Source: Natrinema versiforme JCM 10478 (GTDB taxonomy: Archaea > Halobacteriota > Halobacteria > Halobacteriales > Natrialbaceae). Taken from it: a stretch of DNA of 43,593 nucleotides. Location of the stretch: the NCBI RefSeq assembly GCF_000337195.1, contig NZ_AOID01000048.1, forward strand, positions 94,225 to 137,817, in the 5' to 3' direction. This document shows, piece after piece, positions 5,761 through 41,861 of this stretch. The notes below the pieces were generated by a model that searched no databases, had not been told where the DNA came from, and saw only the letters and a program-made list of their open reading frames with translations. Both the position numbers and the translations under genes were made by a program. Position 1 is the first letter of the stretch, and each line of letters starts with the position of its first letter.

Positions 5761-7170
5761 ATGACACGGAACACTATCAACAGACGCCGGGTACTTTCGG
5801 GAATGGGTGTCGGACTCGCGGGGGCGATGGCGGGCTGTCTCGGTGGCGGTGGTGGCGACGACGACGTCCACTTTATTACGGACTACTACAACGACGCGTG
5901 GCAGCCCCTCTGGGACGACCTCGAGTCGTCGTTCGAGGACGAGACCGACATCCCGATGAACATCGAGGAGGGCGGGATGTCCGGGACCCAGGAGGGGCGG
6001 CTCGCGCAACTGATCCAGTCGGGAGATCCGCCGGACGCCAACACGTCCACGTTCGATCAGGTGGCCGATATCTGGGAGACCGACCAACTCGAGACCGTCA
6101 ACGACGTCGTCTCGTCGATCGAGGAGGTCAACGGGGAGATAAACACCGATGCGTTCCTCGGAGAGGGCGACGAACTCTACCAGATCCCTCACGGGCTGTA
6201 CGTCTCGAACTTCCAGTATCGGGCGGACATCTACGAGACGCTCGGTCTGGACGTCCCCGAGACCTTCAGTGATGTTCTGGAGAACGCCCGGATCATCGAC
6301 GAGTCGGACGAAGTAGACGCCCGCGGCTACGGGCTCGCCGGCGCGCCGACGGGCAAGAGTCAGGACGAAATCCTTGTCATGCTGGCGAGCGCCGGCATCT
6401 CCGGGATCGGCCTCCGCTGGAGCGATCCGGACACCCGCGAGGAACTCGAGATCCACTGGCCCGAGGACGTGGTCACCGAGGTCTTGCAGTACGTCAAGGA
6501 CCTCTCTCAGTACTCGCCCGACCCGACCAGCATCGGCTGGGCCGAGTCGCTCAGTCAGTGGGTCCAGGGCCAGTACGCCCAGTGTTATCACCTCAACGCC
6601 TGGCCGATCGGCGTCACGGCGCAAACGGCCGAGGCGAACGACAACGACGACCTCCGCTTCGTCGCCGAGAACACGGAGATCATCCCGTATCCGATGATGG
6701 ACGGCGTCGACCCGGACGAGAACTGGCTCTCCGCTCCGGCCCCCGACGGCTACCACATCTTCGCGAACGGTGACAGACCGGGCGACGCCAAGCAGTGGTT
6801 CGAGTGGCTCTACGCCGACAGCATGGAGCAGACCGCGAGTTTCTACGAGACGGATCCCGGTCGGTTCCTGCCGACCTACGCCGACGTGATCGACTCGGAC
6901 GCGTTCCAGAACCAGGACATCTTCCAGGCCCATCCCCACCTGCTCGAGAAACTCGAGTACGTTCAGGACGAAATCTGGGGGAACCACTACGGGAGCGTCG
7001 ACGAGGCCAACACCTCCTCGCCCGAGTCGCTGTACATGCAACGGCAGTGGTTCTACGGCGAGATGGTCAACCGCGTCGTCACCGATTCGATGTCCGTCCA
7101 AGAAGCCTACGACTGGGGCTACGGGCAACTCGAGGAGGCCTTCGCGGACGCACAGGAGCAGTTTGGATAG
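5761..7170 (+). CDS. ABC importer solute-binding lipoprotein (carbohydrate family)
   Basis: A 469-residue extracellular binding protein. The N-terminus has a Tat motif (NRRRVLSG) and a lipobox ending in AGAMAGC, then a Gly/Asp-rich linker, so it is probably exported folded and lipid-anchored at the outer face. The rest has the layout of family 1 extracellular solute-binding proteins: an early EGRLAQLIQSGDPPD block and YQIPHGLYVSNFQYRADIY near residue 140-160. It heads a four-gene importer operon. CUT1 systems carry sugars, oligosaccharides or glycerol-phosphates, but the ligand cannot be read from the sequence; no glycosidase or sugar kinase lies nearby. Confidence 0.88.
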   Translation: MTRNTINRRRVLSGMGVGLAGAMAGCLGGGGGDDDVHFITDYYNDAWQPLWDDLESSFEDETDIPMNIEEGGMSGTQEGRLAQLIQSGDPPDANTSTFDQVADIWETDQLETVNDVVSSIEEVNGEINTDAFLGEGDELYQIPHGLYVSNFQYRADIYETLGLDVPETFSDVLENARIIDESDEVDARGYGLAGAPTGKSQDEILVMLASAGISGIGLRWSDPDTREELEIHWPEDVVTEVLQYVKDLSQYSPDPTSIGWAESLSQWVQGQYAQCYHLNAWPIGVTAQTAEANDNDDLRFVAENTEIIPYPMMDGVDPDENWLSAPAPDGYHIFANGDRPGDAKQWFEWLYADSMEQTASFYETDPGRFLPTYADVIDSDAFQNQDIFQAHPHLLEKLEYVQDEIWGNHYGSVDEANTSSPESLYMQRQWFYGEMVNRVVTDSMSVQEAYDWGYGQLEEAFADAQEQFG

Positions 7171-7273
7171 TCAGTATCGCGTGCGGTCCGGTCGTCGGTA
7201 CCCACGTTTGATACGGAGCGAATCTTTATGATCGACCGTGTTATTGACACACATATGAAGAGGAGACCGAGAG
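7171..7273. promoter_or_regulatory. Spacer between lipoprotein and first permease, possible internal promoter
   Basis: This 103-bp spacer has an A/T-rich stretch (gaatctttatga, about 7218-7229) that could act as a TATA box, and a purine-rich GGAGA seven bases before the permease ATG. In ABC operons such a gap often lets the binding protein be made in excess; no terminator hairpin was seen. Confidence 0.3.
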
Positions 7274-8227
7274 ATGGCTAGTGAAACTGGAGAGTCGATA
7301 CGGCCCGGAAGGGCGTACATTCCGTGGGACGACCTGCCGGTAAAGCGGGAGACGGTCGCCGGTATCGGCACCGTCCTGCCCGTCATCGTCCTGTACGTAC
7401 TCATCGCGGTGCTCCCGATCGCGTTCGCGTTCTGGGCATCGTTACACGAGATTCACACGCTCAACCCCGAGTGGCAGTGGGCCGGCCTCGCGAACTACCG
7501 GGAGGTCCTGAACATCTCCACGTTCTGGGGCTCGCTGTGGCGGGGGATCGTCTACATGGTCGGCAGCACGCTCCTCCAGCTCGGCGTCGGGCTCTGGATG
7601 GCGCTCGTGCTCAACCGCATCACTCGCGGGCAGAAACTGCTCACCGCGGTCGTCTTCACGGCCTATCTGATCCCGACGATCATCGTCTCGCTGGTCGCGC
7701 TGCGGGTGTTCGACCCGCTCGGGGGCGTGTTCCAGATGATGGGTGCCGAGTGGTTCGGCCTGTGGGGAGCCCAGACTGCGCCGCTTGGCTCGCGCGATTG
7801 GGCCATGCGGCTGCTGATCCTCATCGGGACCTGGAAGTTCGCCGTCTTCGTCACCATCTTCACGCTCGCGCAGTTGCGCGCAATTCCCGATCGATTCTAC
7901 GAGGCGGCGAAGGTCTGCGGCGCGAACCGGTGGCAGATGTTCCGCGACATCACGCTGCCGCGTCTCATGGGGATCGTCCTGGTCGTCGTCCTGCTCCGGT
8001 CGGTCTTCATGTTCAACAAGTTCGACATCATCTGGCAGCTCACGGAGGGCGGCCCCGGTAACGCGACGACGACGCTGCCCGTCCTGGCCTACAAGACCGT
8101 CTACACGGATCAGGCCTACGGGCTCGCCAACGCGATCTCCGTGGTCATGTTCCTGTTCCTGCTGGCGTCGGCGATCATCTACTTCAAGCTCTTCAACCCC
8201 AGCGAGGAGGTGGAGACGACGACATGA
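7274..8227 (+). CDS. ABC importer permease, MalF/UgpA type
   Basis: A 317-residue inner-membrane permease with six to seven hydrophobic segments. It has the conserved cytoplasmic EAA loop YEAAKVCGANRWQMFRDITL (residues ~212-231), which docks onto the ATPase. A soluble N-terminal stretch of ~30 residues precedes the first segment. It overlaps the next permease by ATGA, so the two are translationally coupled and form the transmembrane heterodimer. Confidence 0.9.
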   Translation: MASETGESIRPGRAYIPWDDLPVKRETVAGIGTVLPVIVLYVLIAVLPIAFAFWASLHEIHTLNPEWQWAGLANYREVLNISTFWGSLWRGIVYMVGSTLLQLGVGLWMALVLNRITRGQKLLTAVVFTAYLIPTIIVSLVALRVFDPLGGVFQMMGAEWFGLWGAQTAPLGSRDWAMRLLILIGTWKFAVFVTIFTLAQLRAIPDRFYEAAKVCGANRWQMFRDITLPRLMGIVLVVVLLRSVFMFNKFDIIWQLTEGGPGNATTTLPVLAYKTVYTDQAYGLANAISVVMFLFLLASAIIYFKLFNPSEEVETTT

Positions 8228-25320: not shown

Positions 25321-25491
25321 GTGCACTCGTTGGGACGGACGGCGCAAAAATCCCCCGTTTCCGGTACTCACTCCGCCGTCGAATAATAGGTTTTTCATCA
25401 CCAGCAGTATGGACTACCGGAAACCCAACCGACCTCCCGGGGTTCGGGATGACCCGAAAACGATACGGTGGTCTTCTCCCTAGGGCCACCA

Positions 25492-27185: not shown

Positions 27186-30100
27186 TCACTCGAGCGCGTC
27201 GGCCACGACTTCGATCGGCGTCGGCGGCTCCTCGGGCACGCCCAGCCGGTTCTCGAGTTGGGTGCGACAGGAGGCACCGGGGGCGACGACGCGGTCGCCC
27301 GCGCTCTCGTCGACCTGCTTGTAGAGGATCGAGGCGATGGCGTCGCTCATCGAGGCGTGCTCGGACTCGTAGCCGAAACTGCCGGCCATGCCACAGCAGC
27401 CCGAATCGAGCGGGTCGACGGCGTAGCCGGCCCGCCGGAGCACCCCGACGGCGTGGTGGTCCTTCGCGACGGATTTCTGGTGGCAGTGGCCGTGATAGAC
27501 GAGATCCCGCGTCGCCGACCCGGCGTCGAACGCGATGTCCTCGTCTAGCCGGAAGGTGTCGATGTACTCGCAGACGCCGTAAGTAGCGCCGGCGAGCGTT
27601 TCGGCGGCCTCCGAGGAGAGCAGGTCGAGGTAATCGGACTGGAACATGACCGCGTCGGAGGGCTCGATGACGACCACGTCCCAGCCCTCGGCGACCCGCG
27701 GCGCGAGCGCGGTGACGTTCTCGCGGGCCGCGTCTTCGGCCTTCTCGAGGAAGCCCTTCGAGAACGCCGGCCGACCGGTGTCGCCGAGGTCGTCGGGCAC
27801 CGCGACGTGGACGCCCGCGGCCTCGAGCACGCGAACCGCCGCCTTCCCCGCCTCGGGATGGCTGTAGTTCGTGTAGGTATCGGGGTAGAGGACGGCCTTG
27901 CGGGTCGCGTCGGCCTCCCTGACGCGAGCGCCGCCCCGCTGGTGAAACCAGTCCCGGAACGTCGTCGCGTGGAACGTCGGCAGCGGCCGATCCGAATCGA
28001 TGCCGACGGCCACCTCGAGGGCCTTGCGCGCGCCCGGGAGCTTCGGTAGGGCGTTCGACAGCGGTGCGAGTTGGCTCCCCACTTTCGAGAGCGTCGCGAC
28101 GTTGGCGAAGAGCCGATCGCGCAGCGTCGCGCCGTTTCGCTGGTGGTACTCGTGGGTCACCTCGGCCTTGAGCTTCGCCATGTCGACCTCGCTCGGGCAG
28201 TCGATGGCACAGCCCTTGCAGCCGATACAGAGCCCCATCACCTCCTCGACGAACTCGTCGGAGACGGCCTCGTCGGGATCCAAATCGCCGCTCATGGCCT
28301 GCCGGAGCGCGTTCGCCCGGCCGCGGGTCGCCGTGATCTCTTCTTGGCTCGCCCGATAGGTCGGGCACATCACGCCGCCGGTGGTCTCCTGCTCGCCGCG
28401 ACAGCCGCCACAGCCGTGGCAGAGTTCGACCATCCCCTGCATGCCGTTGTCGTTCTCCCACTCGAGGGCGGGCTCGAAGCCAGCGTCGAACTCGTAGTCG
28501 GGGTCGAACCGCAGGTGCTCGCGCAGGTCGGTGGGGTCGTCCTCCCGAAACACGACCTGTCCGGGATTCAGAAGCCAGTCGGGGTCGAACGCCGTCTTGA
28601 GGTCCTGAAAGGTCTCCCAGAGATCGTCCCCGTAGAGTTTCCGGTTCCACTGGGTGCGGGCGCGGCCGTCGCCGTGCTCGCCCGAAACCGACCCCCCTAA
28701 TTCGACCACGAGGTCCGTCACGTCGTCCGCGATGCCGTGCAACTGCTCGAGGCCGATCTCTGTCTTCGTGTTCACGAGCGGGCGGACGTGGAGCACGCCG
28801 GGGCCGGCGTGGGCGTAGAAACTCGCGTAGGTGTCGTGGCTCTCGAGAATCTCCTCGAACCGCTCGACGAACTCGGGGAGCCGTGCCGGCGGGATCGCGG
28901 TGTCCTCGATGAAGGAGATGTGCTTCTCGTCGGTCGTCCGCGAGAGCAGGATCGGCAGCCCGGACTTGCGGAGCTTCCACAGTTTCGCCCGCTCGGCGTC
29001 GTCGTAGGCCTCGAGGGCTTCGATGGCGAGCGGGTCGCTATCGCTCCGCGGCGCGTCGGCGGCCGGCTCGGCCGTCGGCGTCGCCGACGGCACGCGGTCG
29101 GCCAGCAGGCCGGCGACCTGCTCTCTCCCGTGCTCGTCGTCTTCGGCGTAGAACTCGACCAAGAGAACGGCGTTGGTTCCCGCCGGAAGCATCTCGGTGA
29201 CGGGGCCGAACTCCGCGGTGTCGCGAGCGAGGTCGATCAGCACGTCGTCTAACACCTCCACGGCGGCGGGGTCGTGTGCGAGGATCGTCTCGACATCTCG
29301 CATCGCCTCGTGGAGATCGGGGTAGCAGAGCAGGGCGACGGCCTTCGTCTCGGGGATTTGCTCGAGCGAGACAGTCGCCTCGGTGACGATCGCTAAGGTC
29401 CCCTCGCTGCCGGCCAGCAGCCGCGCGAGGTTGACGGTGCCCGGGTCGCCGGTCTCCTCACCACCCGGCAGTTCCTCCCCGCGAGCCTCCGCGACGAGGC
29501 GATCGAGGTTGTATCCGGAGACGTTGCGCTTGAGATCGGGATAGGTCTCCGCGATGTGATCCGCGTCTTCCTCGAGGATTCGGTCGACCTCGGCGTAGAT
29601 CCGGCCCTCGAGGTCGCCGTCGGGATCGGCCCTCTCGCCGATCTCCTCGAGGGTGACCTCGCCGAAGGTCGTCACAGTACCGTCGGCGAGGACCGCCTCC
29701 ACTTCCTCGACGTAGGCGTCCGTTTTCCCGTACTGTAGCGAGTGCGAGCCGGTCGAGTTGTTGCCGATCGCGCCGCCGATGGCGCTCTTGTCGCCCCACG
29801 CGGGGTCGGGGGCGAACTTGAGGTCGTGGGGGGCGAGCGCCTCGTTCAGCGTTCCGAGGACCGTCCCCGGTTGGACCGTCGCCGTGCGGTCCTCGGGATC
29901 GATCTCACGGATCTCGTTCATATGCCGCGTAAAGTCCAGCACGACGGCCCGGTTGACCGTCTGCCCGGCGAGGCTCGTCCCGCCACCTCGCGGGAGGACG
30001 GGAATCTCCCGTTCGGCGCAGTACTCGAGGATGCCGGACACGTCGGCCGTCGACTCGGGGAAGGCGACGGCGATCGGCGTCACCTCGTAGGGGCTCGCGT

Positions 30101-30260
30101 CGGTCGCGTACAGTTCGCGAGAGTAGGAGTCCGCGCGGACCTCGCAGTCGACGAGTGCCTCGAGGTCCGCGACCAGCGCCGGGCGATCGACATCGTCGCT
30201 CCGGTAGTCGTAGTTCGCTCGCCGGTCGGCGGCCGGGTCGGCGCTCGGCTCCGATGCCAT
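27186..30260 (-). CDS. GlcD-GlcF fusion: FAD-linked and Fe-S (D)-2-hydroxyacid dehydrogenase
   Basis: A 1024-residue fusion. Residues ~55-280 are the FAD_binding_4 (PCMH) domain with LPRGGGTSLAGQTVN (89-103); ~300-560 is the FAD-oxidase C-terminal domain (LWKLRKSGLPILLSR, HAGPGVLHVRP, GEHGDGRARTQWN). Around 610 and 678 are two 4Fe-4S ligand sets (CHGCGGC, CIGCKGCAIDCP). The final third holds two cysteine-rich CCG domains, the last with CCGMAGSFGYE near 953. Such fusions oxidise D-lactate, glycolate or similar 2-hydroxyacids and feed electrons to the respiratory chain. Residues ~385-405 (SATPTAEPAADAPRSDSD) look like an extra low-complexity insert whose DNA contains a perfect 9-bp stem, 3-nt loop palindrome. 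Confidence 0.9.
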   Translation of the reverse strand: MASEPSADPAADRRANYDYRSDDVDRPALVADLEALVDCEVRADSYSRELYATDASPYEVTPIAVAFPESTADVSGILEYCAEREIPVLPRGGGTSLAGQTVNRAVVLDFTRHMNEIREIDPEDRTATVQPGTVLGTLNEALAPHDLKFAPDPAWGDKSAIGGAIGNNSTGSHSLQYGKTDAYVEEVEAVLADGTVTTFGEVTLEEIGERADPDGDLEGRIYAEVDRILEEDADHIAETYPDLKRNVSGYNLDRLVAEARGEELPGGEETGDPGTVNLARLLAGSEGTLAIVTEATVSLEQIPETKAVALLCYPDLHEAMRDVETILAHDPAAVEVLDDVLIDLARDTAEFGPVTEMLPAGTNAVLLVEFYAEDDEHGREQVAGLLADRVPSATPTAEPAADAPRSDSDPLAIEALEAYDDAERAKLWKLRKSGLPILLSRTTDEKHISFIEDTAIPPARLPEFVERFEEILESHDTYASFYAHAGPGVLHVRPLVNTKTEIGLEQLHGIADDVTDLVVELGGSVSGEHGDGRARTQWNRKLYGDDLWETFQDLKTAFDPDWLLNPGQVVFREDDPTDLREHLRFDPDYEFDAGFEPALEWENDNGMQGMVELCHGCGGCRGEQETTGGVMCPTYRASQEEITATRGRANALRQAMSGDLDPDEAVSDEFVEEVMGLCIGCKGCAIDCPSEVDMAKLKAEVTHEYHQRNGATLRDRLFANVATLSKVGSQLAPLSNALPKLPGARKALEVAVGIDSDRPLPTFHATTFRDWFHQRGGARVREADATRKAVLYPDTYTNYSHPEAGKAAVRVLEAAGVHVAVPDDLGDTGRPAFSKGFLEKAEDAARENVTALAPRVAEGWDVVVIEPSDAVMFQSDYLDLLSSEAAETLAGATYGVCEYIDTFRLDEDIAFDAGSATRDLVYHGHCHQKSVAKDHHAVGVLRRAGYAVDPLDSGCCGMAGSFGYESEHASMSDAIASILYKQVDESAGDRVVAPGASCRTQLENRLGVPEEPPTPIEVVADALE
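29071..29091. repeat. Palindrome inside the GlcD-GlcF gene
   Basis: gccgtcggc-gtc-gccgacggc is a perfect 9-bp stem with a 3-nt loop, in a low-complexity stretch of the coding region. The stem/loop geometry equals the other palindromes in this window, but GC-rich codon usage makes chance more likely here. Confidence 0.35.
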
Positions 30261-30282
30261 ACGAGAGCTTTACTCACGGGTG

Positions 30283-33239: not shown

Positions 33240-34379
33240 TCAGAGGATCTGGTCGGCGATGATGTTCTTCTGGATCTCGCTGGTGCCCTCGTAGATCTTC
33301 GTGATGCGAGCGTCACGGTAGTAGCGCTCGGCGGGGTAGTCCGTGACGTAGCCCGAGCCGCCGTGGACCTGAATGCCCTCGTCGGCGACTTCGACCGAAA
33401 TCTCGCTCGCGAAGTACTTCGCCATGCTCGAGTACTGTGCGGCGATGTCCTGGTTTTCCTGCTCGACTTGGGTCGCGGCGCGGTAGGTCAGCGAGCGGGC
33501 GGCCTCGACCTTGGTGGCCATCTCGGCGATCTTGTGCTGGATGGCCTGGAACTCGGAGATCTTCTGGTCGAACTGCTCGCGCTGGTTGGCGTACTCGATG
33601 GCGGCGTCAAGCGCGCCCTGTGCGGCACCGACGGCCTGCGCGGCGACGTTGGCACGACCGGCGGCGAAGAACTCCATCAGCTGGTAGAAGCCCTTGTCGA
33701 CCTCGCCGATGACGTTCTCCTCGGGAATGCGGACGTCGTCGATGACGACCTCCGCGAGGTCGGAGGCGCGGATCCCGAGCTTGTTGTTGATCTTGTCGGT
33801 CGTGATGCCGTCCCAGTCCATCTCGACGAGGAAGGCGGTGATGCCCTTGTGGCCCTCGCCGGGGCTCGTCTTGGCCATGAGGACGCCGACGTCGGCGACG
33901 GTCCCGTTGGTGATCCACATCTTGTTGCCGTTGGCGACGTACTCGTCGCCGTCCTTCTCGGCGACCGTCTCGATGCCGGCGACGTTCGAGCCGTGTGCGG
34001 GCTCGGAGATCATCGACACCGACGCGATTTCGCCGTTGGCGATCTTGGGCAACCACTCCTCTTTCATCCACTCGTCGCCGAACTCCATGATCATGTTCGA
34101 GCCGAAGCCGGCGCTGCCGATCGCGGAGCCGATTCCCGGATCCGCGCGCCAGAGTTCCTCGGTGACGATGGTACTGGCGATCTTATCCATCCCGGCACCG
34201 CCGTACTCGAGCGGGATACTCGGCGCGACGAAGTCGTACTCGGCGGCCTTCCGGCGAAGGTCCTCGGGATACTTGCCTTCTCGGTCGTGTTCTTCGGCGA
34301 CCGGAACCATCTCGTTTTCACCGAATTCGCGGACGGCCTCACGGATCGCCTCGTGCTCGGCTGACAGCTGGAATGCCAT
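33240..34379 (-). CDS. Acyl-CoA dehydrogenase, short-chain/butyryl-CoA type
   Basis: A 379-residue flavoprotein of the common acyl-CoA dehydrogenase type. Blocks: SMISEPAHGSNVAGIET, GNKMWITNGTVADV, KLGIRASDLAEVVIDDVRIPEENVIG split over the beta domain, QVHGGSGYVTDYPAERYYRDA and KIYEGTSEIQKNIIADQIL, where the glutamate of YEGTSEIQ is the catalytic base. It produces 2-enoyl-CoA and reduces ETF. A TATA-like ctttgtaa on the minus strand (34400-34407) lies ~25 bases before the ATG. The ligase lies 133 bp upstream on the same strand. Confidence 0.92.
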   Translation of the reverse strand: MAFQLSAEHEAIREAVREFGENEMVPVAEEHDREGKYPEDLRRKAAEYDFVAPSIPLEYGGAGMDKIASTIVTEELWRADPGIGSAIGSAGFGSNMIMEFGDEWMKEEWLPKIANGEIASVSMISEPAHGSNVAGIETVAEKDGDEYVANGNKMWITNGTVADVGVLMAKTSPGEGHKGITAFLVEMDWDGITTDKINNKLGIRASDLAEVVIDDVRIPEENVIGEVDKGFYQLMEFFAAGRANVAAQAVGAAQGALDAAIEYANQREQFDQKISEFQAIQHKIAEMATKVEAARSLTYRAATQVEQENQDIAAQYSSMAKYFASEISVEVADEGIQVHGGSGYVTDYPAERYYRDARITKIYEGTSEIQKNIIADQIL

Positions 34380-34512
34380 ATCGTTTGCTTGGTGTCGTCT
34401 TACAAAGTAGCTTCGGATATGCTCGAAATTTGTTTTTGTTAATATCCCGTCGAACGGCCCGTAAGCATGGAAACGAACGGATCGCGAGAGATCGAGCGGC
34501 GCGCGCTCGCGA

Positions 34513-36087
34513 TTACTCGCCGACGTCGTCGGCGTCGTCGCCGCGAAGTTCGAACTTCTGGACCTTCCCCGTCGTCGTTCGCGGGAGTTCCTGAACGAAC
34601 TCGACCTTGCGGGGGTGTTTGTACTCCGCGAGATTGGTCAGGCAGTACTGCTTGATGTCCTCGGGCGTCGCCTCGGCGTCGGGCGTGGTCACGACGAACG
34701 CTTTGACGGTCTCGCCGCGGCGCTCGTCCGGCACCCCGACGACGGCGGCGTCGGCGACGTCCTCGTGCTCGAAGAGCAACTCTTCGACCTCGCGCGGATA
34801 GACGTTGTAGCCGCCCGTGACGATCATGTGCTTCTCCCGGTCGACGACGTAGAAGAAGTTATCCTCGTCCCAGTAGCCGATGTCGCCGGTGTGGAACCAG
34901 CGCTTGCCGTCCTCGTCGGTAAAGGCCTCCTCGTTGGCCTCGGGCAGGCCGTAGTACTCCTTCATCACGTTCGGCCCGTGGATGACGAGTTCGCCCGTGA
35001 TCTCGTGGATCGCCGCTTCCTCCTCGTCGATCGGCCCCTCCTCGACGCGCGGGACCTCGTCGAAGTCCTCGTCAACGATCTTCGCCTCGACGCCCTCGAG
35101 GGGCCGGCCGATGCTGCCCTTCCGCCGGGCGTCGTTCGTGTTGGCGTGGGTGACCGGACTCGTCTCGGTCAGGCCGTAGCCCTCGTTGAGCTGAACGCCC
35201 CAGAGCGATTCGAACCGGTTTAAGACCTCGACCGGCAGGCTCGAGCCGCCGGAGTTGGCGAAGCGAAGCGCCTCGAACTCGTAGCTCTCGGCGTCGGGCT
35301 GGTTGATCATGTCGTTGAACATCGCGGGAACGGCGAACATGATCGTGATGTCGTCGTTCTCGAGCTGGTCCATCACCGTTGGAGCGTCCCACTCGGGGAC
35401 GGGGTAGTAGGTGCCGCCGCTGTACATCGCGCCGTTCATCACGACGGACATGCCGTAGATGTGGAACAGCGGGAGCGTGCCGATGAGTCGGTCGGAGGCC
35501 TGAAAGCCGCCTGGCGGCACGCTCGCGTTGGCCCGCGTCGTAAAGGCGAGGTTGTGGTGGGTCAACAGCACGCCCTTCGGCGTCCCGGTCGTCCCCGACG
35601 TGTACGGCTGGACCGCGACATCGTCGTCCGCGCGGTCGACGGTCTCCTTGGTCTCCTCGGCGAGGAACTCGTCGAACGCCGTCGCGCTGTCGACGTCCGC
35701 GCCCACGCTAACGATCTGTTCGACGTCGGTGTCGTCCTGTACCTCGAGGACGTTCGGCACCAGATCAGCCAGCGCGACGACGGCTTTCGCCCCGCTGTCG
35801 CCGAGCATGTGGCGGATCTCGCGGGCCTTGTACTGCGGGTTCATCGGGACGATGATCCCGCCGGCACGCAGGGTGCCGTAGAACGCCGTCACGAACTGGG
35901 GCAGGTTCGGCAGGTAGATCCCGACGCGGTCACCCTCGCCGATGCCGCGGTCCTCGAGCGCCTGCGCGAACTGTCCGGCTCGCGTCCAGAACTCCTCGTA
36001 GCTCAGTTCTGCGCCGTCGTAGGCGATCGCAGCCGAATCCGGGTTCGCATCGACCGTCCCGCCGACGTCCCGCACGAGATTTGTCAT
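34513..36087 (-). CDS. AMP-forming long-chain acyl-CoA ligase
   Basis: A 524-residue acyl-CoA ligase with A3 PYTSGTTGTPKGVLLTHHN, A5 EGYGLTETSPVTH, A7 WFHTGDIGYWDED and A10 LPRTTTGKVQKFELR. It activates a fatty or other carboxylic acid for beta-oxidation. The start MTNLVRDVG is preferred over an ATG ten codons upstream because a T-rich box (ccttttgtg, about 36112-36120) lies ~30 bases before it. It is transcribed towards the short-chain acyl-CoA dehydrogenase and may share its regulation. Confidence 0.92.
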   Translation of the reverse strand: MTNLVRDVGGTVDANPDSAAIAYDGAELSYEEFWTRAGQFAQALEDRGIGEGDRVGIYLPNLPQFVTAFYGTLRAGGIIVPMNPQYKAREIRHMLGDSGAKAVVALADLVPNVLEVQDDTDVEQIVSVGADVDSATAFDEFLAEETKETVDRADDDVAVQPYTSGTTGTPKGVLLTHHNLAFTTRANASVPPGGFQASDRLIGTLPLFHIYGMSVVMNGAMYSGGTYYPVPEWDAPTVMDQLENDDITIMFAVPAMFNDMINQPDAESYEFEALRFANSGGSSLPVEVLNRFESLWGVQLNEGYGLTETSPVTHANTNDARRKGSIGRPLEGVEAKIVDEDFDEVPRVEEGPIDEEEAAIHEITGELVIHGPNVMKEYYGLPEANEEAFTDEDGKRWFHTGDIGYWDEDNFFYVVDREKHMIVTGGYNVYPREVEELLFEHEDVADAAVVGVPDERRGETVKAFVVTTPDAEATPEDIKQYCLTNLAEYKHPRKVEFVQELPRTTTGKVQKFELRGDDADDVGE

Positions 36088-36195
36088 ACCTTGTGTATGG
36101 TCGTCTGAGGCCCACAAAAGGATTGTTACTCATCGATCCAATTTATTTCGGTTGTTCGAGAAAACGGGCGGCCAGTCCGGCGGAGAGGGCCGCGA

Positions 36196-38388
36196 TCAGT
36201 CGGTGGTCGACGTCGTCTCGATATCGGCCTCCGAACCCTCTTTGGTCGGCATCTCGTAACCGACGACGAAGCGGGCGTGGAGCAACACGCCGACGATGGC
36301 GGCCGCGGCGACGACCTGGATCGCGACGTGGGCGAGCGATCCGAACATCGCACAGAACGCAGCGGCGATGTAGAGGCCCCGAACCGGTGCCGAGAGGTCT
36401 CGAGCCCCGTCGAAGCCGATCGTCGCGACGATCAGGGCGACGGTACCGGCGAGTACCGTGGGGAACGCGAGCAACGTCTCGCTCGACCAGTAGATGAGGC
36501 TCTCGTTCGCGATGAACGCGTAGGGGATGACGAACCCGGGCGCGCCCAGTCGGAGCGCCTGCTTGGCCGACTGGAGGAAGCCCGCGCCCGCGATCCGCGC
36601 CCCGATCGCGACCGAGATCGCGACCGGCGGCGTGATCGCCGACAGCATCGCGAAGTAGAACACGAACATATGCGTCGCGATGTCTGGGGTCCCCAGTTCG
36701 GTGATCGGTTTCGCGACCAGGATGGCCACGAGGATGTACGCCGCGGGCGTCGGCATCCCCAGCCCGAACAGAATGCTGGCGATCATCGCGAGGAACAACA
36801 CGACGAACAGCCCGCCGCCGAACCCGAGCAGGCTCACGTCGCCGAGGCTGACGATCGACGTCGCGACGCGGGCCGTCAGCCCCGTTCCCTCGAGCAGTTC
36901 GACGATCACGCCCATAGCTGCGAGGACGCCGACGAGCGGTGCCATGTCGGTCCCGCCCTGCTTGAACCCGTCGAAGGTCTGCTTAACCGTCGCGGCGAGG
37001 TTCCCGAGCGGGTCGTCACCCCGTATTTCCCGTCCGAAGACCTCCGCCGTCACTTCGTCGGAGCCGACGTCGAAGACGCCGACCACGAAGTTTCGGACGA
37101 ACATCACGCCGACGATCGCGAAGATCGTGTTCATGCCCGACGACAGTGGCGTGTACCGGAGATAGACGAGCGTATACAGGAGGACGCCCATCGGGATCGC
37201 GAAGTGGAGTCCGTTGAGGAGGAGCCGCCACCTGAACGACGTGAGGTCGTTCGAGATCCAGCCGAACTTGAGGATCGTGAAGTGGACGGCGAGACAGACG
37301 CTGAAGTAGAACAGCGCTGCCGGAATGACGCCCGCCCTGACGATATCCAGGTACGGGACCTGAATGATGTCGGCCATCAGGAACGCGGCGACGCCCATCA
37401 CCGGCGGCAGCATCTGGCCGCCCGCGGAGGCGACCGCCTCGATCGAGGCGGCGATATCGTCGTCGACGCCCTGGTCCTTGATCATCGGGATGGTGAAGCT
37501 GCCGGTCGTCGCGGTGTTGGCCGCCGCGCTGCCGGTGATCGAGCCCATGATCATACTCGAGATGACGGCGATCTGGACGACGCCGGTCCGGAGGCTCGTC
37601 CCGAGCTCTTCGCCCACCTCGCGGACGAATTCCATTAGGCCGAACGCCTTCGCGATCCCGGCGAACATGATGAAGATCGCGACCCACGTCGATCCGATCC
37701 CCATCATCGTACCGTCGTAGACGCCGCTGAGCGCGATCGCACCGTTCTCGGCGATCTGCTCCCAGCTCTGGCCCGAGTGCTGGAAGACGCCGAACAGCCG
37801 CGGGCCAACCGCGGTGTGTGCGTACGCGATCGCCGCGACGGCGACGGCCGCGATCGTGGTACCGAACGCCCGACGGGTCGTGTCGACCGCCATCGCGATC
37901 AACACCACGCCGACGACGTGGTCGGCGGTGGTGTAACCGAGGATGTACGCTTCCCCGTCGAGTCGGCTGAAGTTCGTGTAGACGTGGTACATCGTGTACA
38001 GCGCCGCGAGGGCGAGGACGAGGGCGACGTACGGATCGACTCGCTTCCAGACGCGTCGCGCTCGCTCGAGCGCACCGTCGGCGCTCTCGCCGGCCGATGC
38101 GGACGTCGCTGCGTCGTCCTCGACATCGACGCCGGCGGCCTCGTCGGTGAGCTGCTGATAGACGTAGTCGAGGTAGTACAGCGTGATCCCCATGCCGAAA
38201 AAGAGGATCATGTATCGTTTGTCCCGGACTACCCAGCGCGGTTCCTCGACGAGGCCGGTAAGGGGCCAGCCGCCCACGAGGGACACGGCGTACAGGACTG
38301 TGTATCCCGTCAGGATGACTCCCAGTGCGTACACGAGGGCTCCGAGGGCTAACTCGGGGAGACCGCGATCGGAGTATGTTTCGGACAT
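36196..38388 (-). CDS. TRAP transporter fused permease (DctQ-DctM, TAXI type)
   Basis: A 730-residue membrane protein. The N-terminal ~200 residues have about five to six helices (DctQ-like part) split by an acidic Ala/Asp/Ser linker (near 72-105). The rest is the large DctM-like subunit with GSITGSAAANTATTGSFTIP and SAGGQMLPPVMGVAAFLMADI (broken at ~20 residues here) as hallmark blocks, and a second repeat with FGLGMPTPAAYILVAIL. Such fused permeases take up organic acids with a sodium or proton gradient and need a TAXI binding protein. The binding-protein gene lies 8 bp upstream on the same strand, so the two form an operon. Confidence 0.9.
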   Translation of the reverse strand: MSETYSDRGLPELALGALVYALGVILTGYTVLYAVSLVGGWPLTGLVEEPRWVVRDKRYMILFFGMGITLYYLDYVYQQLTDEAAGVDVEDDAATSASAGESADGALERARRVWKRVDPYVALVLALAALYTMYHVYTNFSRLDGEAYILGYTTADHVVGVVLIAMAVDTTRRAFGTTIAAVAVAAIAYAHTAVGPRLFGVFQHSGQSWEQIAENGAIALSGVYDGTMMGIGSTWVAIFIMFAGIAKAFGLMEFVREVGEELGTSLRTGVVQIAVISSMIMGSITGSAAANTATTGSFTIPMIKDQGVDDDIAASIEAVASAGGQMLPPVMGVAAFLMADIIQVPYLDIVRAGVIPAALFYFSVCLAVHFTILKFGWISNDLTSFRWRLLLNGLHFAIPMGVLLYTLVYLRYTPLSSGMNTIFAIVGVMFVRNFVVGVFDVGSDEVTAEVFGREIRGDDPLGNLAATVKQTFDGFKQGGTDMAPLVGVLAAMGVIVELLEGTGLTARVATSIVSLGDVSLLGFGGGLFVVLFLAMIASILFGLGMPTPAAYILVAILVAKPITELGTPDIATHMFVFYFAMLSAITPPVAISVAIGARIAGAGFLQSAKQALRLGAPGFVIPYAFIANESLIYWSSETLLAFPTVLAGTVALIVATIGFDGARDLSAPVRGLYIAAAFCAMFGSLAHVAIQVVAAAAIVGVLLHARFVVGYEMPTKEGSEADIETTSTTD

Positions 38389-38396
38389 TGATTCCG

Positions 38397-39473
38397 TTAG
38401 TTACCGCCGGCGGCGATGAAGAACCACGGCAGATCGTAGAAGTGGACGATCTGTGCCATATCGAAGCCGAGTTCGCTGTAGGAACCGGCTCCGTCTTGAA
38501 CCTCCTGTGCCGACCAGTTCTGGATGTACACCATCTCGGCGTCCTCCTGGTCGAGCGCACCGAGGTTCGCCTCGGTCCCCTCGCTCGTCTGGGCTTCGAC
38601 GAATATGTCGCTGGTCGCGTTGTTGACGGCACTGGCCATCCCCTGGTTGGCGGTGTAGGCCGTCGTCGTCGACGTCGACGTCCGCATCCGGACATCCGTG
38701 TCGCCGGTCGCGCCGCCGCTCGTACTGCCGCCGGCGCGCTCGAACTCGTCGCTCCAGACGCCGATCTCCTCGTAGAAGTCCGCCGCGGCGTCGTGGAAGG
38801 GGACGCCGTCGTACATGTTCTCCACCCAGAAGTCGTCTTCCTCGTGGGTCGCCAGCAGGCCGGCGTACTCCGCCAGTTCCGATTTCTGTTCGTACAGCGT
38901 CTCGAGGAACGTATAGACCGTGTCGTACTCGAGGTCGGCCCGGGAGACGAAGTTGTACGCGAACGTCGGCGTGGGGACCTCCTCCGGGGCGTCGACGTTC
39001 TCGATCTGGCCCGTCTCGGCAGGCTGGATCAGCAGCCGGTCGTCGTCGTTCCAGGCCTGTTCGGTCTCGTCGCTCACGTCGAGGACGCGGAGGTTGTCGA
39101 CCGTACTTGCCGTCTGCTGGAGCCAGCTGGGCGTGATCGAGAAGTTCATCAGCGTCCCGACGCCGACGTCGAGCTGGTTCTCGTTGATCGCGTTGCCTTG
39201 CTCGCTGTAGCTCGTACTCACGCGGTCATAGCCGTCGGTCGCGTGATCGAGCGCACGCTCGAGCGCCGGAGCCGTTCCGGAGCCGCTTGGCGTCGGTGAC
39301 ACCGACGTGTTCTCGTTGATGTCCGATAGGGTCTCGAGGTTCTGGTTGCCGCCGCCGCCGCTCGACTGACCGCCGATACAGCCGGCGAGTGCAGTCGCGC
39401 TTCCGACGCCGGCTGCTGCGAGGAGTGATCGTCGAGTCGTGTCCTTGGAGATGTTAGTTCGCTCTTCCACCAT
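38397..39473 (-). CDS. TAXI-type TRAP solute-binding lipoprotein, circularly permuted
   Basis: A 358-residue lipoprotein. Residues 1-32 are a Tat/lipobox signal (TTRRSLLAAAGVG...ALAGC, lipid Cys C32), followed by a Gly/Ser linker. Residues ~43-248 (from NLETLSDINENTSVSPTPSG to GVWSDEFERAGG) match the part that normally forms the C-terminal two-thirds of TAXI proteins. Residues ~249-358 (from TDVRMRTSTSTTTAY through EAQTSEGTEANLGAL to HFYDLPWFFIAAGGN) match the normal N-terminal third. The order is therefore signal-B-A instead of signal-A-B. The ATG at 39473 is preferred: a TATA box (ttataat) lies 28 bases upstream, while the in-frame ATG at 39488 is only ~13 bases from it. It is the binding subunit of the adjacent permease; the ligand is unknown. 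Confidence 0.85.
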   Translation of the reverse strand: MVEERTNISKDTTRRSLLAAAGVGSATALAGCIGGQSSGGGGNQNLETLSDINENTSVSPTPSGSGTAPALERALDHATDGYDRVSTSYSEQGNAINENQLDVGVGTLMNFSITPSWLQQTASTVDNLRVLDVSDETEQAWNDDDRLLIQPAETGQIENVDAPEEVPTPTFAYNFVSRADLEYDTVYTFLETLYEQKSELAEYAGLLATHEEDDFWVENMYDGVPFHDAAADFYEEIGVWSDEFERAGGSTSGGATGDTDVRMRTSTSTTTAYTANQGMASAVNNATSDIFVEAQTSEGTEANLGALDQEDAEMVYIQNWSAQEVQDGAGSYSELGFDMAQIVHFYDLPWFFIAAGGN

Positions 39474-39497
39474 GAGACGCCCCTTCATACTTAGCTA

Positions 39498-39732: not shown

Positions 39733-40896
39733 ATGCTGGATTTTGTTCAGCTCGAGGAAGACCTCGACCAAGAAGAGCGGATGATCCGGGACACCGCCCG
39801 GGAGTTCGTCGAAGAGCACGTCAAACCCGACATCGGCGACCACTTCGAGGCGGGAACCTTCCCGAAGGAACTCATCCCGAAGATGGGTGAACTCGGTTTC
39901 TACGCCCCCAACCTCGAGGGCTACGGCTCGCCGAACGTCTCCGAGACGGCCTACGGCCTGTTGATGCAGGAACTCGAGGCGGGCGACTCGGGGCTGCGCT
40001 CGATGGCGTCGGTCCAGGGCGCGCTGGTGATGTATCCGATTCACGCCTACGGGAGCGAGGAGCAGAAAGAGGAGTGGCTGCCGGACATGGGGCGGGGCGA
40101 GGCGATCGGTTGCTTCGGTCTCACCGAACCCGAACACGGCTCGAACCCGTCGGCGATGGAGACCCGCGCCGAGCGCGACGGCGACGGTTACGTCCTCAAT
40201 GGCGCGAAGACGTGGATCACGAACTCGCCGATCGCCGACGTGGCCATCGTCTGGGCGCGCGACAAGTCGGCCGATGACGACCCCGTTCGCGGGTTCCTCG
40301 TCGAGACCGACCGCGACGGCGTCTCGACCAACAAGATCGACGACAAGCTCTCGCTGCGAGCCTCGATCACGGGCGAAATCGGGCTGAACGACGTCCACGT
40401 GCCCGAGGAGAACGTCCTTCCGGGCGTCGAGGGCATGAAGGGCCCGCTCTCCTGTCTCACGCAGGCCCGCTACGGCATCGCCTGGGGCGCGGTCGGCGCT
40501 GCCCGGGACTGCTTCGAGGAGGCCCGCCAGTACGCCAAGGACCGCGACCAGTTCGGCGGCCCGATCGGCCGGTTCCAGCTCCAACAGCGCAAGCTCGCGG
40601 AGATGGGCACCCAGATCACGCTGGCCCAATTGCTTGCCTACCGCCTCGCGGAGCTCAAGGAACGCGGCGACATGCGGCCACAGCACGTCTCGATGTCGAA
40701 GCGAAACAACGTCCGCATGGCGCGCAATCAGTCCCGCATCGCCCGCGAGATGCTCGGCGGGAACGGCATCACGACGGACTACTCCCCGATGCGGCACATG
40801 GCCAACCTCGAGACGGTCTACACCTACGAGGGGACCCACGACATCCACACGCTCGTCCTCGGCGAGGAGTTCACCGGCATTCCCGCCTACCAGTAA
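39733..40896 (+). CDS. gcdH: Glutaryl-CoA dehydrogenase-type acyl-CoA dehydrogenase
   Basis: A 387-residue enzyme of the glutaryl-CoA dehydrogenase group. Besides the usual FGLTEPEHGSNPSAMET block, it keeps the residues that bind the second carboxylate of glutaryl-CoA: E82, R89 and S90 in ELEAGDSGLRSMASVQ (E87, R94, S95 in the human enzyme). The catalytic base is E366 in YTYEGTHDIHTLVLGEEFTG (E370 in human). It probably oxidises and decarboxylates glutaryl-CoA to crotonyl-CoA, a step in lysine, tryptophan or aromatic-acid breakdown. It is divergent from a TRAP importer and followed by an IclR regulator, suggesting uptake and breakdown of a dicarboxylic or aromatic acid. A related substrate cannot be excluded. 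Confidence 0.85.
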   Translation: MLDFVQLEEDLDQEERMIRDTAREFVEEHVKPDIGDHFEAGTFPKELIPKMGELGFYAPNLEGYGSPNVSETAYGLLMQELEAGDSGLRSMASVQGALVMYPIHAYGSEEQKEEWLPDMGRGEAIGCFGLTEPEHGSNPSAMETRAERDGDGYVLNGAKTWITNSPIADVAIVWARDKSADDDPVRGFLVETDRDGVSTNKIDDKLSLRASITGEIGLNDVHVPEENVLPGVEGMKGPLSCLTQARYGIAWGAVGAARDCFEEARQYAKDRDQFGGPIGRFQLQQRKLAEMGTQITLAQLLAYRLAELKERGDMRPQHVSMSKRNNVRMARNQSRIAREMLGGNGITTDYSPMRHMANLETVYTYEGTHDIHTLVLGEEFTGIPAYQ

Positions 40897-41084
40897 CGAC
40901 GCGATCCGGCAGCCCGTCTTCGCTTCTCGGCTTCTCTCTGCGTCTCTTCGCGGTTTCCGCTCGGGGATCGACTCGAGGCCCGCCCTCGCCGACACCGGTC
41001 CGGATTTGCAACGTCCGTTCCACTAAGTGATGTCCCCGTCCCAGTATCCGGAACATTGATTGCGACGTGTGAATATCATCGTAT

Positions 41085-41861
41085 ATGGATACGGATCGGG
41101 ACGAAACCGAGGTCGACGCCGACGCCGTAGGCGTCTCGACGACTCGGAAAACGTTCGCGCTCCTCGAGGCGCTCAAAGCCGAGGAGGGCGTCACGATCGC
41201 GGACCTCACGGAGCGGACCGACCTCCCGAAGAGCACCGTCTACCGACACCTGCAAACGCTTACCGATCTGGGCTACGTGATCGAGCGCGACGGGAACTAC
41301 TACGTCGGGTTCCGTTTCGTCGAACTCGGCGAACAAGCCCGGTCCCGAAACGTGGGATACACGGCCGCCAAGCGCGCGGTGTTCGAACTCGGACAGGAGA
41401 CCGACGAACGAGCGGTGTTCATCGTCGAAGAGGACAACGAGGCCGTCTACGTCCACCGCTATGGCAGCCTCTCGAACACGATGCTCGGCCAGCGACGGCC
41501 GCTGCACTCGATGGCCTCGGGAAAACTCATTCTCGCGGAGTGGGACGACGAGGCGGTCCGCGAGTATATCGACGAGGTCGGCCTCGAGCGGATCACGTCG
41601 AACACGATTACCGACTCCGACGCGCTGTTTTCGGAACTCGAGTCGATCCGCGAGCGCGGGTACGCGGTGAACAATCAGGAACACATGGACGGGCTCCGCG
41701 GTGTCGCCGTCCCCGTCTACACGCCCGACGACGAGTTCCTCGGTTCGCTGGCCGTCTTCGGGCCGACCAGCCGATTCACGGACGAGTACGTCCACGACGA
41801 TCTCCCGACGCGACTCCGGGACAAGGCGGGCGAGATCAGAGTCACGCTCGCATACGGTTGA
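41085..41861 (+). CDS. IclR family transcriptional regulator
   Basis: A 258-residue regulator. Residues ~18-80 are the winged helix (TTRKTFALLEALKAEEGVTI, TERTDLPKSTVYRHLQTLTD, GYVIERDGNYYVGFRF); residues ~90-255 are the IclR ligand-binding domain with the conserved GQRRPLHSMASGKL and EHMDGLRGVAVPVY blocks. IclR proteins bind acids of central and aromatic metabolism and control nearby catabolic operons. The most likely targets are the glutaryl-CoA dehydrogenase gene upstream (same strand, 188 bp gap) and the divergent TRAP operon. Confidence 0.88.
   Translation: MDTDRDETEVDADAVGVSTTRKTFALLEALKAEEGVTIADLTERTDLPKSTVYRHLQTLTDLGYVIERDGNYYVGFRFVELGEQARSRNVGYTAAKRAVFELGQETDERAVFIVEEDNEAVYVHRYGSLSNTMLGQRRPLHSMASGKLILAEWDDEAVREYIDEVGLERITSNTITDSDALFSELESIRERGYAVNNQEHMDGLRGVAVPVYTPDDEFLGSLAVFGPTSRFTDEYVHDDLPTRLRDKAGEIRVTLAYG

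Follow-up and report, generated by a model that had tools for sequence, protein, structure and literature searches.

The window analysed here is a 43,593-nucleotide stretch of the Natrinema versiforme JCM 10478 genome (contig NZ_AOID01000048.1). On its minus strand it carries a gene for a TAXI solute-binding protein (SBP), whose frame is open from 39473 (or from an alternative start at 39488) to a TAA stop codon at 38397. The protein begins with a Tat-like motif and a lipobox, followed by a Gly/Ser linker and then by two TAXI parts in swapped order (B-A). The features of the gene and its surroundings are as follows.

39381..39473 (-): signal peptide with twin-arginine TTRRSLLAAAGVG, ending in the lipobox LAGC; from the sequence and an N-terminus comparison of 72 homologues
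39339..39380 (-): lipobox Cys and Gly/Ser linker CIGGQSSGGGGNQN, which now connects the anchor to part B
39240..39338 (-): part B1, lobe 2 entry (LETLSDI..SVSPTPSGSGTAPALERALDHA); from swapped-order alignment to colinear homologues, PF16868 positions from 101
38733..39239 (-): part B2, remaining lobe 2, second hinge, and lobe 1 C-terminal segment (..FHDAAADFYEEIGVWSDEFERA)
38694..38732 (-): linker GGSTSGGATGDTD, bridging the two canonical termini, C to N
38400..38693 (-): part A, lobe 1 N-terminal segment and first hinge strand (VRMRTS..QTSEGTEAN..YDLPWFFIAAGGN), last in the chain
36196..38388 (-): fused TRAP permease (DctQM type), the SBP partner; TIGR02123 405.4 bits (cut-off 320.65), DctM 1.2e-52
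34513..36117 (-): AMP-dependent acyl-CoA ligase, operon-conserved; from synteny and NCBIfam matches, all under cut-off
33240..34379 (-): acyl-CoA dehydrogenase family protein, downstream, operon-conserved
39733..40896 (+): acyl-CoA dehydrogenase family protein, divergent, adjoining permuted and colinear SBPs alike
41085..41861 (+): IclR-family regulator, conserved neighbour; Pfam IclR_C 7.2e-34, and synteny

The mature domain of canonical TAXI proteins runs from part A to part B, with B1 following part A. In the window protein the order is B1-B2-A, and B1 forms the new N-terminus of the fold (the type I break); the start of B2 is the break site in the type II permutants described below. PF16868 (NMT1_3) matched the protein in two swapped stretches with 69.6 bits, above the gathering score of 27 bits, and residues 44–238 corresponded to profile positions 101–289 although they precede the rest of the match in the protein. 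TIGR02122 was also matched in two swapped stretches, and its score of 62.9 bits fell under the cut-off of 84.35, at least in part because the alignment is split. The colinear orthologue L040, from Natrinema altunense, matched each profile in a single run (positions 3–289 of PF16868 and 6–320 of TIGR02122). Colinear L040, L043, and L046 scored 112.3, 86.6, and 95.3 bits, respectively, for TIGR02122, and the other permutants 68.5 (L039), 57.4 (type II, L014), and 87.8 bits (type II', L048), the last of which passes.

When the window protein was cut at approximately residue 247/261, the pieces aligned in swapped order to colinear homologues with approximately 70% identity, the level reached by its nearest colinear relatives. 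Parts A, B1, and B2 each occur once, rotated and joined by a linker, with the signal peptide and the stop/spacer context retained. Judged by these marks, the gene is a natural circular permutant of a TAXI SBP. A preliminary description of the locus had proposed the B-A order, and the profile order, the swapped-order alignment, and the nearest homologues all agree with it; its placement of the break at the first hinge crossing between the lobes was borne out by alignment to TAXI structures, by which the break falls just after the first hinge strand. The SBP has no other close copy in this genome, where the next TAXI protein is only 24% identical.

The permease starts 8 bases past the SBP stop, providing the adjacent fused membrane subunit that characterizes TAXI-TRAP systems. 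The Tat/lipobox signal is common to the permuted and colinear orthologues, as judged from the N-termini of the 72 homologues; Pfam TAT_signal matches were under the family cut-off. The IclR regulator and a dehydrogenase on one side, and the SBP, permease, ligase, and second dehydrogenase reading away from them on the other, form an order shared by the type I genomes and by the majority of both the type II and the colinear genomes. The exceptions are G349, which retains only the SBP and permease, and G259, which lacks the adjacent divergent dehydrogenase. Because the operon order is conserved, types I and II are orthologues in place. The earlier reading of the gene as a permuted TAXI SBP that has an export signal of its own and belongs to a TRAP operon is supported by the profile order, the nearest homologues, the genome context, and the trees.

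Elsewhere in the window, a single frame at 25453–26529 matches AhbA (residues 31–168) and AhbB (207–353), i.e., a fused siroheme decarboxylase AhbAB, and 27189–30269 encodes a large FAD/Fe-S oxidoreductase that is YdiJ-like (D-2-hydroxyglutarate dehydrogenase), with a match under the family cut-off.

Distribution, selection, and exchange of the permuted genes

The preliminary description had pointed to close relatives as the place to look for the same order, and the type I order and breakpoint were indeed found in nine further species, comprising eight genomes of the window's genus (L006–L013; 83–88% identity to the window SBP) and Natrialba taiwanensis (L039). The named type I records are Natrinema thermotolerans, gari, pallidum, and mahii. 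Since all these sequences have the break in common, it is neither a chance feature nor a misassembly. A second order, B2-A-B1 (type II), occupies this locus in five more genomes from the Natrialbaceae, three of them from one genus (G032, G415, and G248) and the others being G259 and G168. Its break lies approximately 35 residues beyond that of type I, in the loop that connects the first helix of lobe 2 (ALEHALDN) with the strand after it (GYERISVS). G349, a member of another family, also has the order B2-A-B1 with a break in the type II loop, but its SBP (L048) is not closest to type II and is here called type II'. Overall, B2-A-B1 was seen in L014, L048–L051, and L064, and the remaining 56 homologues examined were colinear.

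The type II gene lies on plasmids of two Natrarchaeobaculum sulfurireducens strains (NZ_CP024046 and the complete plasmid of the second strain), where it is 79% identical to the type II protein used as the query. Both proteins are annotated merely as 'substrate-binding domain-containing protein'; together with the sub-threshold TIGR02122 match of the window protein, such generic names indicate that standard annotation tends to miss permuted SBPs. PF16868 was detected in 266 of the 392 genomes in our sample of the order, and the matches listed were colinear and near full length. The sample searched beyond the order contained no relatives at E 1e-20. Outgroups and the nearest sisters all have the A-B order, by which the B-A order is not ancestral; the earlier proviso that it might be the original haloarchaeal state does not hold.

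Selection on the permuted genes was assessed by Nei-Gojobori dN/dS, whose medians were 0.17 for type I, 0.105 for type II, and 0.256 for the colinear set, which is more diverged. All 16 permuted sequences have an open frame. These values point to purifying selection on the permuted SBP. The SBP and permease (36196–39473) diverge much faster than the surrounding genes, down to approximately 70% identity within the genus; the neighbouring ligase, dehydrogenases, and regulator (33240–36117 and 39733–41861) are mostly 82–98% identical.

The SBP and permease have also moved together. Between Natrialba taiwanensis and N. asiatica, the flanking proteins are 95–99% identical, versus 62% for the SBP and 72% for the permease; between N. 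taiwanensis and the Natrinema genome G015, the SBP and permease are 85 and 83% identical, respectively. Conversely, G026, a genome of the window's genus, carries a Natrialba-like colinear SBP (L140; 91%) and permease (83%) between Natrinema-like flanks. These identities show that the SBP travels between genera together with its permease and that permuted and colinear versions act as alleles would. This co-exchange is the strongest indication from the sequences that the permuted SBP works with its own permease.

The window assembly is a 72-contig draft, in which an assembly or sequencing artefact might have swapped the halves; however, the same junctions recur, between orthologous flanks, in the assemblies of nine other species, some of them single-contig chromosomes, and one of the N. 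sulfurireducens plasmids with type II is a complete record. The independent assemblies refute this reading, which the preliminary description had raised, and we regard its probability as negligible. The gene could also be a rearranged, non-functional pseudogene heading for loss, since the gene can decay, as in the colinear orthologue of G222. Set against this are the 16 open frames with dN/dS of 0.1–0.2, the position of the gene as the sole close SBP copy next to an intact permease, and the transfer of the permuted SBP between genera along with that permease, which make a dying gene highly improbable. The G222 copy (L142, approximately 6535–7451, minus strand) seems to be frameshifted within B2 and is either a pseudogene or a sequencing error.

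Independent origins and possible course of the rearrangement

The SBP tree was inferred with IQ-TREE from 72 proteins, all rotated to A-B first. The type I sequences fell into a single clade (100/98), whose sister group consisted of seven colinear genes (100/93); type II formed another (96/88), with the colinear L116 as its sister (100/100); and L048 (type II') was placed elsewhere, apart from both. Forcing all permutants into one clade cost 166 log-likelihood units and was rejected (AU p 6e-8), as was a grouping of II with II' (109 units, AU p 2e-6). Trees of part A only and part B only also separated the three groups, and the tree of the adjacent, unpermuted permease gave the same three separate positions. 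The G207 SBP and permease (L116/L137) are colinear and long-branched, are sister to type II in both trees, and represent the nearest available unpermuted relative of that group. The most parsimonious count, and the best reading of these trees, is that one orthologous haloarchaeal gene was permuted on three separate occasions; the difference between the type I and type II breakpoints requires two at the least.

A single permutation followed by reversions or further rearrangement would be an alternative to three origins, and types II and II' are indeed broken in one loop, and on the tree alone a gain plus losses would be conceivable. The different breakpoints of types I and II, the colinear genes lying between the permuted groups in both the SBP and permease trees, the AU rejection of joint clades, and the need for several reversions, each back to precisely the canonical order, render such a history improbable. 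Another possibility is that the permutant is a chimera of tandem paralogues, with a Natrialba-like A and a Natrinema-like B fused by an intervening deletion. Consistent with this, type I grouped with L019/L043/L044 in the A-only tree (90/94) and with L015–L018 and relatives in the B-only tree (90/87), and SBP-permease cassettes do move between Natrialba and Natrinema. However, part A did not reject the alternative placement (p 0.318 over 100 columns). A single parent gene is therefore enough, and the part A and part B trees are left without significant conflict. We therefore consider a chimeric origin unlikely, if less so than a single event, and retain three permutations, each of one gene.

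Permuted and colinear genes resemble each other in the signal peptide that precedes the mature domain and in the short stop/spacer/ATG stretch that follows it; the rotation concerns the mature domain only. At the B2|A joins, a native C-terminal end (..ERAD, ..ERADEP) is followed by an N-terminal-type linker (..GGSGETTVRMRTS); in early-branching type I members this linker reads DGSS..GGSGETT and resembles the N-terminal linker of the colinear L078 (GDGGSGETTVRMRTS). With the signal peptide and the stop codon on either side left as they were, the mature domain may have been duplicated and then reduced by two deletions; alternatively, it may have been excised as a circle and reinserted. The tandem duplication and partial loss suggested in the preliminary description fit the joins, but no tandem A-B-A-B intermediate was found among the loci examined. 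The cagt-type repeat between the linkers, on which that suggestion partly drew, is significant in the window (codon-shuffle p 0.002) but does not recur in most other type I genomes, including early-branching ones (p 0.02–0.87, marginal in only a few). As the repeat is inconsistent across the clade and the sequence is Gly/Ser-rich, it constitutes weak evidence and was dropped as proof of tandem duplication.

Predicted fold, anchor position, and function

The AlphaFold2 model of the colinear L040 (pLDDT 73.5, pTM 0.73) matched the TAXI crystal structures 1us4, 8u79, 9ibo, 4ddd, 9ibp, and 8s4j with TM scores of 0.70–0.77, and its profile aligned end to end with 1us4 (E 4.8e-10). The permutant was modelled as one chain with modest confidence (pTM 0.64, mean pLDDT 65, from 20 sequences), with secondary-structure elements that broadly match in rotated order. 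A sequential Foldseek search of this model against the PDB gave nothing below E 1e-3; the best match, OpuAC, was weak (E 1e-3, TM 0.35–0.49), and TAXI 4ddd aligned over 216 columns. Because a sequential aligner cannot fully score a permutant, retention of the two-lobed TAXI fold is likely but not demonstrated. The two-lobed shape would still be reachable, since both canonical termini lie in lobe 1 and are bridged by a linker of approximately 9–16 residues.

In VcGluP, domain 1 comprises residues 29–115 and 268–328, and domain 2 comprises residues 132–254 (PMC11574862). From these limits, part A and the end of B2 would belong to lobe 1, and B1 would start lobe 2. In all three permutations, the N-terminal lipid anchor would then sit on lobe 2, having been on lobe 1 before. 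The main physical effect would be an anchor attached where lobe 2 begins and no longer to lobe 1; the ligand cleft should stay intact while the position of the tether is altered.

The gene context (ligase, dehydrogenases, and IclR regulator) suggests some carboxylate as the substrate. The SBP would bind it in the cleft and deliver it to the neighbouring fused permease; the ligase would then activate it with CoA, and the acyl-CoA dehydrogenases would process it. Overall, it is highly probable that the window encodes a working, naturally permuted TAXI SBP of a TRAP transporter and that this one haloarchaeal gene has been permuted independently at least three times, the window SBP being one such case. 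More speculatively, the permutations may be adaptive. Selection in surface-tethered archaeal TRAP systems would then have favoured, time and again, a transfer of the anchor out of lobe 1 and into lobe 2, which would change the docking of the SBP on the fused permease, and permuted and colinear cassettes would act as interchangeable alleles at one locus; we regard this as a tentative idea that is rather doubtful at present.

Relation to known systems

A natural circular permutation is usually taken to be a single, ancient event that separates distant proteins. In the present case, orthologues of both forms, with approximately 70% identity, occupy the same operon, which allows a before-and-after comparison of folding, binding, tether geometry, and docking. 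Three events, two of them in one loop, together with intergenus exchange along with the permease, provide a natural test case for why proteins permute.

Compared with the characterized TAXI SBPs (TtGluBP, 1US4/8U79; VcGluP, 8S4J/9IBO; and the Ehrlichia protein, 4DDD), both halves of the window protein are homologous but swapped. The lipoprotein signal and the adjacent fused permease are as usual for TAXI systems generally. OpuAC and ProX, which bind compatible solutes, possibly present a known difference in lobe order between related SBPs, but they belong to another family and transporter class than the window SBP. Permutation is unmentioned in the TAXI papers PMC11574862, PMC12344293, and PMC5812351, and a literature search that mostly covered papers outside subscription found none on circular permutation in TRAP/TAXI systems or Natrinema. 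The cpRAS GTPases are reported to be natural permutants in which different breakpoints have evolved in one fold (PMC2430557). Permutation there is a family-level feature with a scattered distribution, whereas the present case involves permuted and colinear orthologues at approximately 70% identity, some exchanged as alleles.

The closest precedent is Tp0684/MglB-2 of Treponema pallidum, a naturally permuted SBP for which the class 'Type Ic/Cluster Bc' was proposed; a lipid tethers it by the new N-terminus, it has kept ligand binding and closure, and it is also found in other species (PMC4990184). The window SBP is likewise a tethered, permuted SBP. MglB-2, however, is the glucose binder of an ABC transporter, belongs to another structural cluster, and has one topology, whereas the window case concerns a TRAP-TAXI protein with at least three permutations and colinear sisters alongside. 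Given its TAXI homology and TRAP permease, the window SBP is similar to MglB-2 in its working but is not a member of the MglB-2 class. The authors of the MglB-2 study suggested that tethering may drive permutation (PMC4990184), and the haloarchaeal SBPs offer a test of this suggestion. Natural permutation of an SBP thus has a precedent in MglB-2, and it is the recurrent permutation of one TRAP-TAXI orthologue that appears to be new.
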